Shown here: piece after piece, positions 53,559 through 63,126 of the stretch
Numbering within the stretch: the first letter of the stretch is position 1
How the letters are laid out: each line of letters starts with the position of its first letter
Assembly: GCF_018143015.1 (NCBI RefSeq)
Contig: NC_054754.1
Location: 27,182,330-27,246,329 of the forward strand
Origin: Lytechinus variegatus
Taxonomy: Eukaryota; Echinodermata; Echinoidea; Temnopleuroida; Toxopneustidae
Reading direction: 5' to 3'
DNA: 64,000 nucleotides
The notes under the pieces: model-generated
What the model was told of the DNA's origin: nothing
The model's input: the letters and a program-made list of their open reading frames with translations, nothing else
Database searches by the model: none
Translations under genes and position numbers: made by a program

Positions 53559-53709
53559 TCATCAATACCACCTCCACCACCACCATCATCATCATCATCA
53601 TCATCACCACCATCATCATCACTTTATCATCATCACCACCACCACCATCATTATCATCATCATCATCACTATCATCATTACCACCACCACCACTATCATC
53701 ATCATCACC

Positions 53710-53756
<47 letters not shown>

Positions 53757-53869
53757 CCCATCATCATCATCATCATCATCACTTTATCATCATCACCACC
53801 ACCACCATCATTATCATCATCATCATCACTATCATCATTACCACCACCACCACTATCATCATCATCACC

Positions 53870-53952
<83 letters not shown>

Positions 53953-53954
53953 CC

Positions 53955-53986
<32 letters not shown>

Positions 53987-54036
53987 CTTTATCATTATTA
54001 CCACCACAACCACCATCATCATCATCATCATGATTA
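53559..54036 (+). repeat. (ATC)n microsatellite with higher-order units
   Basis: About 480 bp of ATC/ACC trinucleotides. A ~160-bp higher-order unit starting ACTTTATCATCATCACCACC recurs at 53621 and 53781, with a shorter third start at about 53985 (ACTTTATCATTATTACC). Length differences between units are confined to the pure ATC run. Confidence 0.9.
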
Positions 54037-55231: not shown

Positions 55232-55449
55232 TCAAGGAGCGCAGGAGGGCGTGTCTCCATTGTACCGGGCCTTGCCGACACGTTGCCCAGTTTCGGTATT
55301 GGCGCACCAGCATCGTTCCTGTGGGTAGAGGCACTGGAGTTTGTGGTAATTGCCGTCTTCGTCACACTGAGGGACGTAGAATCCGTTACGAGGGGGGTTG
55401 TTCTTCAACTTGGCCATGACGATGTCATAACGTCTCTGACAGGCTCTCC
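55232..55449 (-). CDS. Fusion gene terminal exon: thyroglobulin type-1 domain
   Basis: After a CTCATAG acceptor the exon encodes ACQRRYDIVMAKLK, GFYVPQCDEDGNYHKLQC, RCWCANTETGQRVG and TPSCAP, then TGA. The spacing of six Cys, with QC and CWC(A in place of V), is that of thyroglobulin type-1 repeats. The domain ends only one residue before the stop. Confidence 0.92.
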
Positions 55450-58400
55450 CTATGAGAAGATGATTTAAGAATTCATTTGTAAAGACACTTCTGATACGGA
55501 ACTTTTAGGAGCCTAGGGTTCCATAACACAAAGCTAAGTAATTGATCATAGGTTGATTTTTAATATTGATTGCATCGATCACTATGTTCAATTAAATGGC
55601 TAAAATTTTTGTTTAATCAATTGCTTAACTATGTGATACAGCGATATAATATAAATAAATATAAGAGGACCATAGAATAGCTACCAAGAGATGGAAAAAT
55701 GGTCCAAAATAGATATTTTTTAAATCTTGAAAGCAGAATATTGTTTGGTTTTATTTCAGCATTCAAAATTATACAATACATAATATAAAACATGTTTACA
55801 AACACATTATACAAAATAATTAATAAAAACAATGCAGTCATATAATGAATAAAATACAAAATACGATGTGAACAAAAAAAATTCTTTTATATAAAAATGC
55901 TACTAATGAAGACAGGAGACCCCTATCAATTCAATTCAATTCAAAATGGTTTATTTAGATAAAAAACTTTCATCACAGCACAGAGCCGAATTACAAAAAG
56001 TTTTTACAATATAAAAGATTGAAATCATAAGGAATAAACAGAGTGTGGCATACAACAAAAAAAGTAATACAATAAAAAACAAATATGGTACACAAAGAGA
56101 ATCGTGAGCAGGTAAGTTGGAAATTGATGGTGGTCTAATAAAAAAATTGTGTAATTTAGTTAATTTATTTGGAAAATTTATACTTATAATTGAAAATGTA
56201 GAAGTTAGTTAGTATTGAGTAACTTACCTCTGTGACGAGGCTGATCTGGTGTTAGAACTGAATGGAACAAAATATAAAAACAAAGTGAAATTAGCATATA
56301 AGTTTTTATTTATCTCTATTTGTAAACCCCCAACAAATGAGGAATTCTCAATGATTCATTACACATTAGTTAACGTTTTAAGGGAAACGTAAACAATATA
56401 AAAGATGAAATCTACAGACATTTCTACAGACATGGAGCGTTGTGGCCCAGTGGATTAGTCTCCGGTCTTTGAAACAGAGGGTCGTGGGTTCAAATCCCAG
56501 CCATGGCGTAGTTTCCTTCAGCAAGAAATTAATACACATTGTGCTGCACTCAACCCAGGTAAGTTGAACAGATACCTGGCAGGAACTTATTCCTTTAAAT
56601 GCCAAGTGCGTAAAAGCTGCTTGAGCTACAACCGGGGTAATAATATGCAAGTCCTTTGGAATCACAGAGAGACGTTATTCATAATGTGTTATGCACTATA
56701 CAAGAACAGACTATTATTATTTTGCCAATCAAAGATTACTCTGATGCCATATATGTAGAACCATCTTCAAATAATTTGCATCTGTTTTCTAGTTGATATA
56801 AAACGCTGTGATGCTTTTAAATGATCTTGCATTGAGCAGGGTGACACGACTTTTCCTCCTGCGACAATTGCTCTGGGCTTAATTTCGTCTCAGATGTATG
56901 GTTAGGGTTGCAACAGGGTTTATGTTAGGTTTAGGGTCAGGTATAGTGTTAAACCCAGGGTTAAATTTGGTCATTCACTTAGTGTGTGGAATTTAGAGTG
57001 GAGGAATTGTTGCAGGAACAAAAGCCATGGAGCTTTGAGCAGATTATGATTATGAAATGAAGTAAGAAAAAGAAACATCTTGGTCGGGTGTACGCAATAA
57101 ATTGATTAATTCATGGCAGGAACTACACAGGGCTCGGGATGATTTCACCCAGAAATGCTTGAAAGAGCACCGGGGTTCGTTGGAAAAAGAGTTGCGTTTA
57201 AACGCAAGTCCCAAATGCGCACTGTGGATTGGTTGAAAATCAAGTTGCGCATGATTTTTAGAGTTGCGTTTGAAGGCAACTCTTTCTGCAACGGGCCCCT
57301 GGACAATAAAGAATAGCTAGAGCACTGGAAATCCTCATTCATTGCAATGTTAAAAGCTTATCCAATGTCGCAGATTTACGCAGTAGGTTGTTAAATTTAG
57401 CCCCCTCCCCCTCCCCTTCTCCCCCCAAAAAATTCTTGCCTGTGTGGATTGCCTAAAAATACTGTTACGGAAACTGGTCACATCACGTAGGAATGTAGCT
57501 TTAGAATGTTTGATAATAAAACTCTTACTTGGTGCTTCTGAACATGCATTTATTTTACAGTTGTACAAAGTAAGAATTGAGAAAAATTTGAGTTGGGCGA
57601 AACTAAAAATTGATTACTTTATGGAACTACTCTGAACACACTAATGATGTTACTGGTGTTACATCATATGTGAACATAGAACATATGATAATAGAACTCT
57701 TACTTGGTGCTTCGGCGCATGCACATATCTCACAGTTGTCGCTGTCTCTCTTGAATCCAAAGCGGCAGAACATCTTGCAATTCAAGCGCTTATCACAGAC
57801 AGCTGGAAGGCAGGCAGAACAGAATAAAATGTGATCAGTTATCTATCATTAATTCATATAAATCATCATGGATGCAGTTGAAGCTGGTTCTTTTTTAATT
57901 CACAAGGCTGCTGCAGGAGTCCTTCTTCAATAGACTTTACCTGTGACTCGGCCCAAGGCGAAGGCAAGCAAACTTACTGAACTTACCGAAGAACCACACA
58001 GTCCATCTTGGTAGTATACCGAAGTGGACTGCAGTGTGGCAAGGATGAGAGGGGCTATTTGCCCTTAGTAACCCCAAAATGACTCTAATTTTGTTTTAAA
58101 ATTCTACAGAGATGGTGCATATACTGTTTAAGAGAGGGAAATTTTTCCGATTTTGGATGACCTGGCCTTCATCCTTCCACATTACCAGTGCTTTCTTTAA
58201 ATCTCATTTCAAATATAAACCAATCTAGTCTGTAACTAAAATGAAGGCAGATTAGATTCTCAAAGACATATACATGTAGATACATGTACCACTATAAGAG
58301 GTGCAAATAATATTCCCAAGTTGATCATAATTTTTTTTGGTACATGATTTGCAGTAAACTTACATTTACTGTTATGCTTAATGGAATGTTCATACATTCA

Positions 58401-61400
58401 AAACATCTATAATAACCATTTTGAAAAAAAAAAAACAATGAAACCTCAATGCATCAGTGGTGTCACAAAAAGAAATATAATCAATATTTACAACTGAATG
58501 TAAATGGTTGAACATAATATGCCATGGAATATAATTATGGTTTATCATACCACTAATTGTATCTTTTATCTTACAGGGCCAAGGGACCTGTTTCACAAAA
58601 CATATTATAATAAAAAAATTTCAATTAACAGTTAAAAGCTACTGAAATCCTTCATTCTGATTGGCTGAGGGTAACAGATCATTATGAAACAGGGCTGAGG
58701 AATATTGTCCTACCTTCACCTTCAACAATGCTAACAGGTGCTTCAGGGATCATCTGGCCAGCAACAGGGGGCGCTACACCTGTATTTAATACAAGAACAT
58801 AATACAGATATTCAATGGATCAACATATCACATACAGAGTTGGATTCGTGGGGCACATCTGGCCTGTGCCCCAGCCCCTTGAGAGTGATAAAAACAATTT
58901 TGAAGTAGAAAGTTGGCAGACATATGCAAGAGAAGACCTTTTTTAGGGGTGGGGGGGGGCTTGTAATAATTTTTTTGAACAAAAAATGCCCCCCCCCCCT
59001 CTTGAAAATTCTGGATCAACCCCATGCATGAACGATGTTGGTGACTTCGTGAATGAATGATATATGGCTTCTAATCAACCTCCAAATTTCAATGTCAAGG
59101 AAAATTTAGTTGTGTGTTTTTTCAAAGGAGCTACAGAGAAAAAATATTTTCAATGTAAAATGACATATGCATACATAAGTTTTGTCTTTTTTGTATCATA
59201 AGAATCAACTTTATATAACTCTAATCAATATTTTTGTAAAATTTGAAACTTTACAATTAGCTGTTTGATAACAAGAATTTCAAATTTAATCTAAGGGATT
59301 CCATTTAAATCTTACCTATAAATGAGAATGAATTTTGTTGAGAAACTAATTGAACACTAGAAATATTTCTAACAGCTTTATGAAAAGCATCCCTGAACAA
59401 GGGATTTTTTTGTTAGGTCTTTGTTGGCCAATTACAAATACAGCATAATCTAATGTGTCATTTGTATCATGGGACTGTTTCATAAAGATATCATTACAGT
59501 ATTTTTGCCATTATACTTCTGGCCATGGAGACCTTTTTTTTGATTGGCTGTCAAGCTCTGTTACCAAGGTAGTCGCCATTATGGCAAAGTTGCCACAATC
59601 ATTAGTCCTTTATGAATCTGGGCCCCTGGAACTTAAAAAATATAATGAAATCAAATGCAAGTGATGATTGATGGGGTCAGGTGATTACTCACGAGGACAG
59701 TTTGAGTAGTCGGCATCGACAGCGGCCTCAGCAGACAAGAGACAGCATCCAAATCCTATGTCCTCACAAACTACGTTGTCAACTGGTGCTGGATAGAAAA
59801 ATAAGGAAGATCTTTACTATCACTATGAAAATGTCAATGAATTCTTTTGATGCATAAAAACATTGGATGGTCTAATTCAGCCCCATCCCCAAGAAATGCA
59901 CCAGTTAAAAATTCAAAAGATAAAAAGTACACTCGTGGATCTATTATAGATGGAACTCAACGCTATCATTTCTTTGATCGAATGAGATCCGCTGCCTCGT
60001 GATTATGTGCGTCTTAGTGAGAACATACAGGTGTTTTGACAATAGCAACTACAAAAGGACAGTTTTCCTGGTTTTGGTTTGTGGTTATACATAATAGACA
60101 ATCAATTACAATATTGCCTCTATCTTAAAATATGCATACATTTTCCCAAATAAAACACATTGAAATATGATTGCCAAAGGATAACCAGAACTGCACATGG
60201 ATTTTCCAGGATTTATGTGATTTATCATCTTCTGTGTATATAGTTTGTGCAATATCAATGTCTAATCATGAACTGCTTCTTTCAACTAATGGTCTAAATT
60301 GATGGCAGAACAAGGAAGGATCAACGTAGACAAATATGAAGAGAATGTTATTCAGAGCACAATGACGGTCACCAATTAGTGAATTCATTAACTAATTGAT
60401 GAGTGTCCCTCTCTAATAGGTCCATGTTGGTACCAACAATGCCTAAAGCATTTCCACTTATTTCATTGTATGATCGATAAAAGAATAGGTTGATTTGACG
60501 TGCCTAGGCACCTTGTCAAAAGTCTTGTCTTTTCTGCAGGGATCCCTCAAGCATCTTTTTCAATCCTCAGTTTTCATTATAGACAAAACAAAGGAAAGCA
60601 GGAAAGCCGCAGTTGATAGATATATATAGTGCCTTCATTATGGGATTCCTGCTAAAAGGCGCAGCATAGACTATCGACAAGTTGCCTTTAAGGGCATAGG
60701 TGCTGTGGCTGGGGATTGAACCCTACAACTTCATGTGTGTAGTCGGGCGTCTTAGACCACTCTACCACGTGCCCCATCGTTCTATACCATTTTCATCTGA
60801 ATCTAACCACTCTTGGTACACACATATTCTATCATGTGTACAATCTACAGGAATGTGATGTCATATTTACACTCTCTTTCTATTCTCAATTTATGCATTT
60901 AGTAAAATGAGGTAAACATTAAAATTTTCACAAAATGTGCATGTTCCCATTTCCTTGGATATTTTCAAACTATTCTTGTTTATTAAGGAATCTGGATGTG
61001 CTACATCATGACTTATTACTGTTATTGATTTAATTTGTCACATCTGCTACTTTTTTAATTAAGATTTTTATTTTGATTATGAATTGGAAATACGAAAAAA
61101 AAAATTATAATGTATATCTTTGCCATCAATTTCCTATGGATTTGTCAATTTCATGTTTACCACTATTTTGTATATTGAGAAATTACAAGCATAATCAAAA
61201 TACTTTGACCTGATGGGGAACAGGGGAAAAAAAAGAAGCTGTAGCGGGATATAAAATACTTTCAAATTACCTGGGCCAGCATTAGATTCCTGGGGACAAG
61301 GAGCTGTAATGATAAAAAAAAGAAAGGATGAAAAAAAAAGTAATGGTTATTCATACTATGATCTTGTCATACATGTACCTTCTGAGGGTTTATAATAATC

Positions 61401-63126
61401 ATAATCCCCTCTAAAATTCTTGATGAAATCTAACATTGTTTTAGTCTATGACAAACCCAGTGACTATATTCATAATTACTATATATTTTTGTTTGAACAT
61501 ATTTCAATTTATCAGCTTATATCTATGGAAAGGGATCCCTATGTGTATATTCATAACAAGGGCAAAGATAAGAGGGCTACAAGTGATAGTGGTTAATGTA
61601 GAACAGGCTTTTATACAAATACTGCAGATTCGCGAGTAAAACCTAAGAACTGGGGAGCATTTCATCAACATTGGTCTGAAAACTTTCCTTAATTATGATT
61701 GGCAGAGAGGCACCATGACCACAGTACCTTTCAGGTAAAACTTGTGACAAGTCTTTCATGAAACGCTCCCCTGATTTCTCTGTATTTATGATGGCAAGCA
61801 TATAGCCAGTGTGATGCATGCATGACCAACCAGAGAGCAGCGCTGCACCCAAACTGCACAGCGCTGTGCCCAGAAATGCCAATTGGAATGTAGAGTAGTA
61901 TTAAAGCATGAACACGACACTTGCTATTGGCAACATAGTTGAAGCCCTATTATAAATAATCATAAAACACAATAAGTCTCTTACCTGGGTTAGCCTGCAC
62001 TGTGGCCTGGTCAACGCAAGCTTCCTCGATGACCCTCTGAACGGTTGCCCAGAATCTTGGCTGAATTTGCCTCTCTCTACCCAAGATCCAGAGACCCATG
62101 GCCAATGGGTCACAGGTGCCGTCCCTCTTGATCCGATGACAGGTGTACATGATAGCGTAGTTGTCATAGTCTGTATCCAGCACCCAGTAGTTCACTGTAT
62201 GATGCGATAATGGATATTATACAACTCAAAAAAGATTCTTGTCATTTCATTGGCTGAAAGTCATTCAATATATGATCCATTTTGTCATTGTGCTGCTTGC
62301 AAATTTTATTTTCCATTGCACAGCAACGATGCATTTTTCATTTTTTCATTGCATAGTTGAACTCTCTCCCTCAGTGTGTACCACGTACTGAGCACGTGTG
62401 TGTACGTACATTTTGTATGTGTGTGTGGTCGCGCGCATCAACACGGCTGTGTATACTTTATAAATGCATGAATCAAAGCACGTTACAAAAAAAAACAAAA
62501 ATTAACTGCCTTCATACATGGGGAAAATAATCATGTCATCAGAGAAAATGTTTGAGACAAAGGCAAATACATTTTAATTCCATCTGCTTTTTTTCATTGA
62601 TTTTGTCAAATAACACATTCTAGAAGATTTGTTGTATAAACCAAATGATGCTTGTCTTCATTCGTCCATTATGCGACCTATCCACTCTCGTTGAGGCTGT
62701 GTTTAATGAACCCATTGCATTCAGCCTAACAGCTTATACAGAATTGGCTAAGAATTTGTCTTAGAATTTGGCTAAGAGTTTTTGCGCGACTTAGACAGAT
62801 ATAGGATGAATGGCTAAGTAACTTTTCTTAATTAAAACTGGCTAAGAATTTTGCCCTAACTTTAAGACAGATGTGAATTGTCTAAATGGTTTTAGTTTCA
62901 AGGCAATCTTGACCCACGCCTTTTCTTTGTAGTCCACAAGGTGCGGTCATTGGTCCAATATTGTTTAAAACTTTATTCCCGATTCTGGCATTTTAACTTG
63001 TACTTACCCACTTGGGGTACTTGATAACCTTCTGGTATAAGAGGAAATGATACAACAATCTTAGCAGGCTCTTCACGACCAAGCCATCCCATGCCTGGCA
63101 TATCATTTGGTAAGCATTCTCCATCC
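55232..63126 (-). CDS. Secreted lipocalin-antistasin-thyroglobulin type-1 fusion protein (3' eight exons)
   Basis: Exons, in transcript order, are 63008-63126, 61985-62194, 61271-61303, 59693-59788, 58714-58779, 57704-57802, 56228-56257 and 55232-55449. All junctions are GT-AG and every one of the seven internal junctions is phase 1, giving 223 residues in one open frame to a TGA. Exons 1-2 form the C-terminal part of an ApoD-like lipocalin barrel: EEPAKIVVSF and YWVLDTDYDNYAIMYTC match EPAKLEVKF and YWILATDYENYALVYSC of ApoD. Next come a short Cys-containing linker, a Cys-rich exon (CEDIGFGCC...SNCP) of unknown fold, and an Ala/Pro linker. An antistasin-like module follows (CKMFCRFGFKRDSDNCEICA). 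The C-terminus is a thyroglobulin type-1 domain with six Cys (QC, CWCA, PSC). Antistasin and thyroglobulin type-1 modules often inhibit proteases, so a secreted ligand-binder/inhibitor is plausible. Signal peptide and N-terminal exons lie beyond 64000. Confidence 0.85.
55920..56165 (-). mobile_element. LINE 3' tail fragment (minus strand)
   Basis: On the minus strand it ends in AAATAAACCATTTTGAATTG followed by AATTGAATTGAATTGA, like the fragments at 9003-9125 and 10331-10541. It lies in the last intron of the fusion gene. No coding remnant was seen. Confidence 0.5.
56228..56257 (-). CDS. Fusion gene exon 7 (30-bp linker exon)
   Basis: A very short exon, LTPDQPRHR with split codons at both ends, between CAG and GAG|GTAAGT. 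It is supported by phase continuity with both neighbours. Confidence 0.7.
56434..56720 (+). mobile_element. tRNA-derived SINE (best-preserved head)
   Basis: The head has GTGGCCCAGTGGATTAGTCT (A-box) and GTGGGTTCAAATCCCAGCCA (B-box GGTTCAAATCC). The body CAGCAAGAAATTAATACACA, GATACCTGGCAGGAA and AACCGGGGTAATAATATG precedes an ATTATTATT tail. It lies in the last intron of the fusion gene, opposite to its transcription. Confidence 0.85.
57130..57305. repeat. MITE with GTTGCGTTT / GGGCCC ends
   Basis: GTTGGAAAAAGAGTTGCGTT with TAAACGCAAGTC on the left mirrors AGAGTTGCGTTTGAAGGCAA and CTCTTTCTGCAACGGGCCC on the right, around a GATTGGTTGAAAATCAAG core. It is non-coding. Confidence 0.6.
57510..57575 (-). 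pseudogene. Relict duplicate of the antistasin exon end
   Basis: On the minus strand, YNCKINACSEAP followed by an AGTAAGAG donor parallels DNCEICACAEAP|GTAAGAG of the true exon at 57704-57802. The similarity continues into the intron (GATAATAAAACTCTTACTTGG against GATAATAGAACTCTTACTTGG, given on the plus strand). A module Cys has become Asn, and the 5' part has no recognisable antistasin sequence. I read it as a tandem-duplicated exon that has decayed. Confidence 0.65.
57704..57802 (-). CDS. Fusion gene exon 6: antistasin-like module
   Basis: After a CCTTCCAG acceptor, AVCDKRLNCKMFCRFGF then KRDSDNCEICACAEAP. The pattern C-x5-C-x3-C-x-x-G-F-x2-D-x3-C-x2-C-x-C fits antistasin-family inhibitor repeats, apart from the spacing near the N-terminus. 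The donor is CCAA|GTAAGA in phase 1. Confidence 0.85.
58586..58697. repeat. Short MITE
   Basis: GGGACCTGTTTCACAAAACA on the left is inverted against TCATTATGAAACAGGGCT on the right, with a CATTCTGATTGGCTGAGG core like that of 47691-47847. Confidence 0.55.
58714..58779 (-). CDS. Fusion gene exon 5 (Ala/Pro/Val linker)
   Basis: It encodes VAPPVAGQMIPEAPVSIVEG then E, with split codons at both ends in phase 1. The acceptor is AATACAG and the donor GAAG|GTAGGA. It looks like an unstructured spacer between modules. Confidence 0.75.
58842..59030. mobile_element. hAT-like MITE with GGATTC/GGATC ends
   Basis: GAGTTGGATTCGTGGGGC on the left and AATTCTGGATCAACCCCAT on the right are inverted. The internal CTGTGCCCCAGCCCCTTGAG matches 20606-20904 and 31167-31350. 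Confidence 0.5.
59465..59627. repeat. Diverged copy of the 47691-47847 MITE
   Basis: TGGGACTGTTTCATAAAGAT on the left and TAGTCCTTTATGAATCTGGG on the right, with CCATTATGGCAAAGTTGCCA and a TTGATTGGCTGTCAAGC core. Confidence 0.7.
59693..59788 (-). CDS. Fusion gene exon 4 (Cys-rich, unknown fold)
   Basis: It encodes PVDNVVCEDIGFGCCLLSA then EAAVDADYSNCP, bounded by a TATCCAG acceptor and a CCTC|GTGAGT donor, phase 1 at each side. Four Cys, including a CC pair, suggest a small disulfide module that I cannot name. Confidence 0.8.
60640..60776 (-). mobile_element. tRNA-derived SINE of a second type (minus strand)
   Basis: On the minus strand, GGGGCACGTGGTAGAGTGGT (A-box) and GTAGGGTTCAATCCCCAGCC (B-box) are spaced as in a type II tRNA (Leu/Ser-like) head. 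They are followed by a body with TGCGCCTTTTAGCAGGAATC. It is in an intron of the fusion gene, in the same sense. Confidence 0.65.
61271..61303 (-). CDS. Fusion gene exon 3 (33-bp linker exon)
   Basis: It encodes PCPQESNAGP with split Ala codons at both ends. The acceptor is ATTACAG and the donor CCAG|GTAATT, phase 1 both sides. Confidence 0.7.
61650..61772. repeat. Copy of the GGGAGCGTTTCATGAAAG MITE family
   Basis: GGGGAGCATTTCATCAACAT on the left and TCTTTCATGAAACGCTCCCC on the right, with the inner GATTGGCAGAGAGGCACCAT also seen at 47531-47690. Confidence 0.75.
61985..62194 (-). CDS. Fusion gene exon 2: lipocalin C-terminal barrel and helix
   Basis: After a CATACAG acceptor: NYWVLDTDYDNYAIMYTC, HRIKRDGTCDPLAMGLWILG, RERQIQPRFWATVQRVIEEA then CVDQATVQANP. 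It matches the last strands and C-terminal helix of ApoD-like lipocalins, including the Cys pairs. The donor is CCAG|GTAAGA. Confidence 0.92.
62195..63007 (-). other. Fusion gene intron
   Basis: This is an intron between the two lipocalin exons. It contains repeated GGCTAAGAATTT-like phrases near 62745-62860 and no other feature. Confidence 0.7.
63008..63126 (-). CDS. Fusion gene exon 1 in window: lipocalin strands
   Basis: It encodes DGECLPNDMPGMGWLGREEP then AKIVVSFPLIPEGYQVPQV. EEPAKIVVSF corresponds to EPAKLEVKF of ApoD. The acceptor is CATGTAG (incoming phase 2, so at least one upstream exon exists outside the window) and the donor GTGG|GTAAGT. Confidence 0.9.

Follow-up and report, generated by a model that had tools for sequence, protein, structure and literature searches.

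Introduction

Polycalin, the many-lipocalin protein of the moth midgut, is glycosylphosphatidylinositol-anchored or membrane-bound, and its barrels are of the insect type; it is not known to have antistasin or thyroglobulin type-1 (Tg1) modules. AMBP has one lipocalin plus Kunitz modules. Here we describe a predicted gene on the minus strand of a 64,000-nucleotide stretch of the Lytechinus variegatus genome (GCF_018143015.1, contig NC_054754.1, positions 27,182,330-27,246,329; called the window below) and the DNA beyond it. Its product is, in our judgment, rather likely to be one secreted protein composed of six RBP4-like lipocalin barrels, a Cys-rich segment, an antistasin module, and a Tg1 module, serving as a multi-site binder, carrier, or store.

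Several relatives in design have been described. Excerpts of PMC4985599 contain Helicoverpa armigera entries named "Multidomain lipocalin" and "Polycalin" and cite by title a 252-kDa chlorophyllide-binding lipocalin-like protein of the Bombyx midgut; polycalin is thus a precedent for a chain of many lipocalins and for pigment binding. Its likeness to the present gene lies, as far as these excerpts go, in the joining of many lipocalin domains in a single chain. In the available parts of the respective articles, AMBP appears as a lipocalin encoded together with a protease inhibitor (PMC8420045), yeast Svf1 as a chain with two lipocalin or lipocalin-like barrels and no inhibitor tail (PMC10583516), and vertebrate APCDD1 as a membrane-anchored protein with two barrels of 5-10% identity to lipocalins, likewise without an inhibitor tail (PMC10193966). 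As for RBP4, excerpts of a review say that invertebrates lack the genes for RBP, STRA6, and LRAT (PMC5133064), and excerpts of a phylogenetic study of lipocalins in Ciona and 16 jawed vertebrates trace RBP4 to an APOD-like ancestor early in chordate evolution (PMC8420045). RBP4 resembles the units described here in being their top match among solved structures and in its cysteine set; it is a single barrel, in contrast to the six in tandem with an inhibitor tail here.

Multidomain lipocalins are therefore already known, and what is new, as far as searched, is the combination of RBP4-like barrels with an inhibitor tail. An earlier note on the window, made from the sequence alone, had proposed an undescribed design of one ApoD-like lipocalin joined to antistasin and Tg1 modules. 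The novelty of the module order stood insofar as the names lipocalin, antistasin, and thyroglobulin type-1 were not found together in the open-licence PMC literature, and fell insofar as many-barrel lipocalins such as polycalin exist, to judge from the excerpts cited above. Neither an RBP4-like array nor an array with an inhibitor tail was found in the open-licence literature, polycalin itself not having been searched for by name, and the word "lipocalin" did not occur in two echinoderm papers. An annotated orthologue may well exist.

Results

The window holds the 3' end of a predicted gene with six lipocalin units

A spliced reading of the window gave eight minus-strand exons in one open frame, with all seven junctions in phase 1. 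They turned out to be the 3' end of a larger gene, which runs on along the same strand for 61 kb to an exon encoding a signal peptide. The additional DNA covered 60 kb around the right-hand end of the window and then 200 kb further upstream, and positions above 64000 continue the window coordinates past that edge. The predicted product comprises a signal peptide, six lipocalin domains, the Cys-rich segment, one antistasin module, and one Tg1 module. The gene model has 35 exons, 33 of which were seen, and encodes about 1314 amino acids, some 34 of them placeholders. The exon order, the frame, the repeated exon scheme, the cysteine pattern, and the Pfam modules of this predicted protein can all be read from the DNA.

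Each lipocalin unit is modeled as five exons, here called N, A, B, C, and D, and repeats the phase pattern 1-0-2-1-1-1. Searches with exon peptides (tblastn), unit 6's own exons being among the queries, located exon A at six places and exon C at six places, all on one strand; for unit 6, exon A was recovered with no other query than its own peptide, whereas exon B was taken from the list of open reading frames. The phases were 0-2 for exon A and 2-1 for exon B in six of six units and 1-1 for exon C in all six, while exon N was 1-0 in four units, with that of unit 1 starting at the ATG, and exon D was 1-1 in five. The exons had a GC content of 0.496, compared with 0.359 for the introns. The first N exon (124865-124713, minus strand) begins with an ATG and a signal-peptide-like stretch; 79 kb of sequence offered two candidates, and no other than this one fitted. 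N-like exons occurred once in 150 kb of control DNA.

Unit 6, the last of the array, straddles the edge of the window. Its exons N (64680-64622) and A (64150-64008), the latter holding the G-x-W motif, fall immediately outside it, while exons B (63126-63008; phase 2 in, 1 out; open, with AG/GT borders), C (62194-61985; 1-1), and D (61303-61271; 1-1, carrying the sixth cysteine of the unit) lie within it, all on the minus strand. The eight exons named in the earlier note indeed join in one frame, all of them open. The seven phase-1 junctions were also borne out as such, but the first two are internal introns of the lipocalin unit, which leaves those behind exon 61303-61271 as the ones relevant to the joining of different modules. 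The lipocalin that the note had seen is incomplete in the window, since its first two exons lie past the edge, and it is not a single lipocalin but the last of six, to which the inhibitor modules form a short tail.

Taken by themselves, the eight window exons would give one ApoD-like lipocalin with a tail of antistasin and Tg1 modules. A stand-alone lipocalin was, however, ruled out: five more lipocalin units stand in phase on the same strand, exon N of unit 6 encodes no signal peptide, no start exon turned up when the interval between units 5 and 6 was scanned, and unit 6 scores nearer to RBP4 than to ApoD (see below), all of which makes this architecture highly improbable.

Cysteine counts point to a small fifth exon

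Without exon D, most units show an odd number of cysteines, and the sixth cysteine of unit 6 sits in exon 61303-61271. Prompted by these odd counts, we scanned behind each exon C for a short, cysteine-containing exon of phase 1-1. Every interval held two or three candidates, and in each of the four searchable intervals, which are free of the run of N described below, one of them started with Cys-Asp. Candidates starting in this way were absent from 150 kb of minus-strand control and from 70 kb of plus strand (55-125 kb). The Cys-Asp filter was chosen only after the exons had been seen; a looser one, with Cys among the first two residues, gave nine candidates per 150 kb of control, which corresponds to an expectation of about 0.5 for the 8.3 kb covered.

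The lipocalin units score closer to RBP4 than to ApoD

The units were scanned against Pfam without exon D, and unit 4 also without exon N. PF08212 was above the cut-off in six of six units (in unit 4 by 0.6 bit) and PF00061 in five of six. Seven residues, G, W, Y, T, D, Y, and R, among them those of the conserved G-x-W, T-D-Y, and R positions, were invariant in all six. Two units were searched singly against solved structures, and both came out nearest to RBP4: unit 3 scored 67.8 bits with RBP4 versus 38.2 with ApoD, and unit 6 scored 61.2 versus 38, contrary to the ApoD-like barrel that the earlier note had read in unit 6. With a profile built from the six units, and among the best 60 of 147 matches, 17 RBP4 rows scored 94.3-105.7 bits, ApoD 83.5, sandercyanin at most 63.8, crustacyanin A2 51, and the AMBP lipocalin at most 32.3. 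Identity was 24-32% between units and RBP4, 25-28% between units and ApoD, and 38-50% among units 1-5.

We then compared the cysteines in an alignment of the units with eight references. The RBP4 set consists of C4, C70, C120, C129, C160, and C174, which pair with one another. Each of the four complete units (1, 2, 5, and 6) has six cysteines, five of which share human RBP4 columns; in units 3 and 4, which miss unseen exons, the set is incomplete. At C129 and C160, all six units share a cysteine with RBP4 and with no other reference, and at C4 the same is true of the five units with exon N, ApoD and the insect lipocalins having a cysteine two columns off. The cysteine corresponding to C70 stands three columns from that of RBP4, in a column common to PTGDS and AMBP. 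Many lipocalins have cysteines at C120 and C174; the exon D cysteine of unit 6 aligns with C174, in a column also occupied in ApoD, the insect lipocalins, PTGDS, and AMBP. The two columns in which ApoD, sandercyanin, insecticyanin, and BBP have a cysteine contained none here, column 57 in all six units and column 18 in all five units with exon N, although the units have a cysteine two columns from the latter.

The introns gave a further comparison. Excerpts of PMC3506607 and PMC8006376 place the human RBP4 introns after c.111 and c.248, and the signal peptide has 18 residues according to the latter or 16 by one passage of the former. On these partial sources, arithmetic puts the first intron in phase 0 after residue 19, which is the N-A junction exactly, and the second in phase 2 in residue 65, which matches the phase of the A-B junction but is displaced from it by about three aligned residues. 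Such agreement could be a general lipocalin trait and does not prove descent from RBP4.

In a tree of the units and the eight references, only units 1-5 cohered (support 98/96); neither RBP4 (34/35) nor unit 6 (66/37) was placed. The approximately unbiased (AU) test did not reject a grouping of the units with RBP4 (p-AU 0.255) or one with ApoD and the insect lipocalins (0.827). ApoD as the nearest kin was discarded because of its lower scores and the rejection of a clade of the units with ApoD and sandercyanin alone (0.0025). The tree, the AU test, the identities, and the pocket and rim residues described below count against a close kinship of the units with RBP4.

The tail carries antistasin and Tg1 modules joined by phase-1 junctions

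Downstream of unit 6, the minus strand of the window encodes five further exons, the first four of which are phase 1-1. The Cys-rich segment (59788-59693, exon h2) had no match in the Pfam scan. It is followed by a linker exon (58779-58714, h3), which an alternative donor would end at 58720, and by the antistasin-like exon (57802-57704), which encodes one module matching PF02822 at 5.5e-8 over 26 of 26 positions. A short basic linker exon (56257-56228, h4) then leads to the exon with the Tg1 module and the stop codon (55449-55232), which matches PF00086 at 1.3e-14 over 67 of 67 positions and has the CWC motif and six cysteines. The claim that a lipocalin is linked through phase-1 junctions to antistasin and a terminal Tg1 module was supported by the sequence of the spliced product, with both tail modules full-length.

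Within the introns, 57502-57564 is an 83% copy of 57677-57739, which covers the 3' end of the antistasin exon and its donor site, and represents a partial exon duplication. A dispersed repeat at 56433-56650, which is 85% identical to 88398-88617 and has a tRNA-like stretch by eye, is perhaps a tRNA-derived short interspersed element; a tRNA scan of the window found none. An array of about 151 copies of the trinucleotide CAT lies at 53584-54031, 1.2 kb beyond the stop codon.

We also looked for the modules across the genome (869.6 Mb, 33 contigs). When exon C of unit 3 was used as the query, 13 candidates were scored and six of them matched at an E value of ≤0.01, all six in this gene; more distant lipocalins may lie beyond the reach of this one-exon search. 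A genome-wide Tg1 search gave 14 matches, among them the Tg1 module of this gene. Eight of these 14, taken as loci of 3 kb each, one being this gene, contained no antistasin or lipocalin match, a weak negative because the antistasin exon of this very gene also falls outside its 3-kb locus.

The units and the tail likely belong to one gene

That the array is one gene is likely, and the reading frame and phases would suit a single transcript. Apart from the first exon, start exons with a hydrophobic stretch turned up, in the scanned intervals and phases (the interval before unit 4 excepted), at two places, one ahead of unit 5 and one ahead of h4. Both are pyrimidine tracts read as protein; per 5 kb of control, 1.4 such candidates arose in phase 0 and 0.43 in phase 1. 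A separate start for the tail was considered and discarded: there was no signal-like start exon in 61270-57803, exon h2 itself being outside the scan, and the sole candidate among phase-1-ending starts in 57703-55450 was the tract before h4.

The same uninterrupted frame might instead encode a secreted polyprotein, cut into single lipocalins and free inhibitor modules in the way that AMBP is cut into alpha-1-microglobulin and bikunin. Arginines are present in the D4-N5 and D5-N6 linkers and in h4 ahead of Tg1, in favor of such cutting. There is no common basic cutting site, however, since neither Lys nor Arg occurs from the final cysteine of unit 1 to the first of unit 2, or likewise from unit 2 to unit 3 (the linker between units 3 and 4 being unseen), and we hold this processing to be distinctly improbable.

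Among the 40 longest DNA self-matches in the gene, two touch an exon and one links homologous exons. Exon C of unit 1 matches that of unit 2 at 78% over 96 bases, and 75228-75347 is a 79% copy of the adjoining 75083-75200, the start of exon A of unit 4 and the intron upstream of it. Given so few exon self-matches, the array is neither a recent duplication nor an assembly artefact, and both origins were ruled out.

Discussion

Several observations weigh against one six-barrel, ligand-binding chain. The gene model was read from genomic DNA alone. The exons were picked by their AG/GT borders and phase, which are hence not independent evidence, and some N and D exons were picked among two to four candidates. 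Exons D3 and N4 were not seen; the interval expected to hold them includes a run of exactly 2500 N (76001-78500), which is either an assembly gap or a withheld stretch, and D3 was also absent from the 1.1 kb preceding the run. The intron between exons A and B of unit 1 measures 24.7 kb. Of the 21 positions lining the retinol pocket of RBP4, each unit keeps at most 3, no more than ApoD, versus 20 in chicken RBP4, in an alignment that is uncertain in the loops. Units 1-5 agree with one another at 9 of the 21, which is not clearly above their overall identity, and unit 6 differs. Finally, an in-frame ATG just ahead of exon N5 could start a shorter product.

This last point touches on the number of transcripts. 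Units 1-4 might form a gene of their own, followed by a shorter one that begins at unit 5, or at another point, and encodes two lipocalins and the inhibitor tail, since exon N5, when extended upstream, begins with an ATG and a hydrophobic stretch (69435). This stretch is the pyrimidine tract of an ordinary acceptor, such candidates arising at the control rate reported above, and the donor of exon D4 is in phase 1, compatible with N5. Two or more transcripts are thus unlikely, if somewhat less so than the AMBP-like polyprotein, and we prefer a single chain of six barrels with its tail.

Secretion, ligand binding, and protease inhibition by this chain would be expected by analogy with the known properties of lipocalins, antistasins, and Tg1 domains. 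The chain may bind, carry, or store a small hydrophobic ligand or a pigment outside cells, in a polycalin-like manner, and having many barrels per chain could, as polycalin suggests, provide a high ligand capacity. The tail might guard the chain, or the site of its deposition, against serine and cysteine proteases, or else anchor the chain. Retinol is not predicted as the ligand, since the pocket residues of RBP4 are mostly not kept. At the 13 positions of its transthyretin/STRA6 rim, each unit keeps at most 2, versus 12 in chicken RBP4, and the rim loop is shorter in the units. The pocket positions hint at five like sites and a different one, though with an agreement not clearly above overall identity.

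An origin independent of moth polycalin is likely. A tentative and more far-reaching possibility, to which we give well under even weight, is that an RBP4-lineage lipocalin pre-dating chordates survives here in no other form than this chain of six barrels and a protease-inhibitor tail, made into a multi-site carrier by tandem duplication of a five-exon unit bounded by phase-1 introns, independently of polycalin.

The array illustrates a way in which phase-1 introns at both ends allow a lipocalin gene to be multiplied within a protein. If the proposed reading is true, it would be the second many-barrel lipocalin beside moth polycalin, with another type of barrel and an inhibitor tail. If the kinship with RBP4 is also true, and with the host an invertebrate, RBP4-type domains at this locus would push the origin of RBP4 back.

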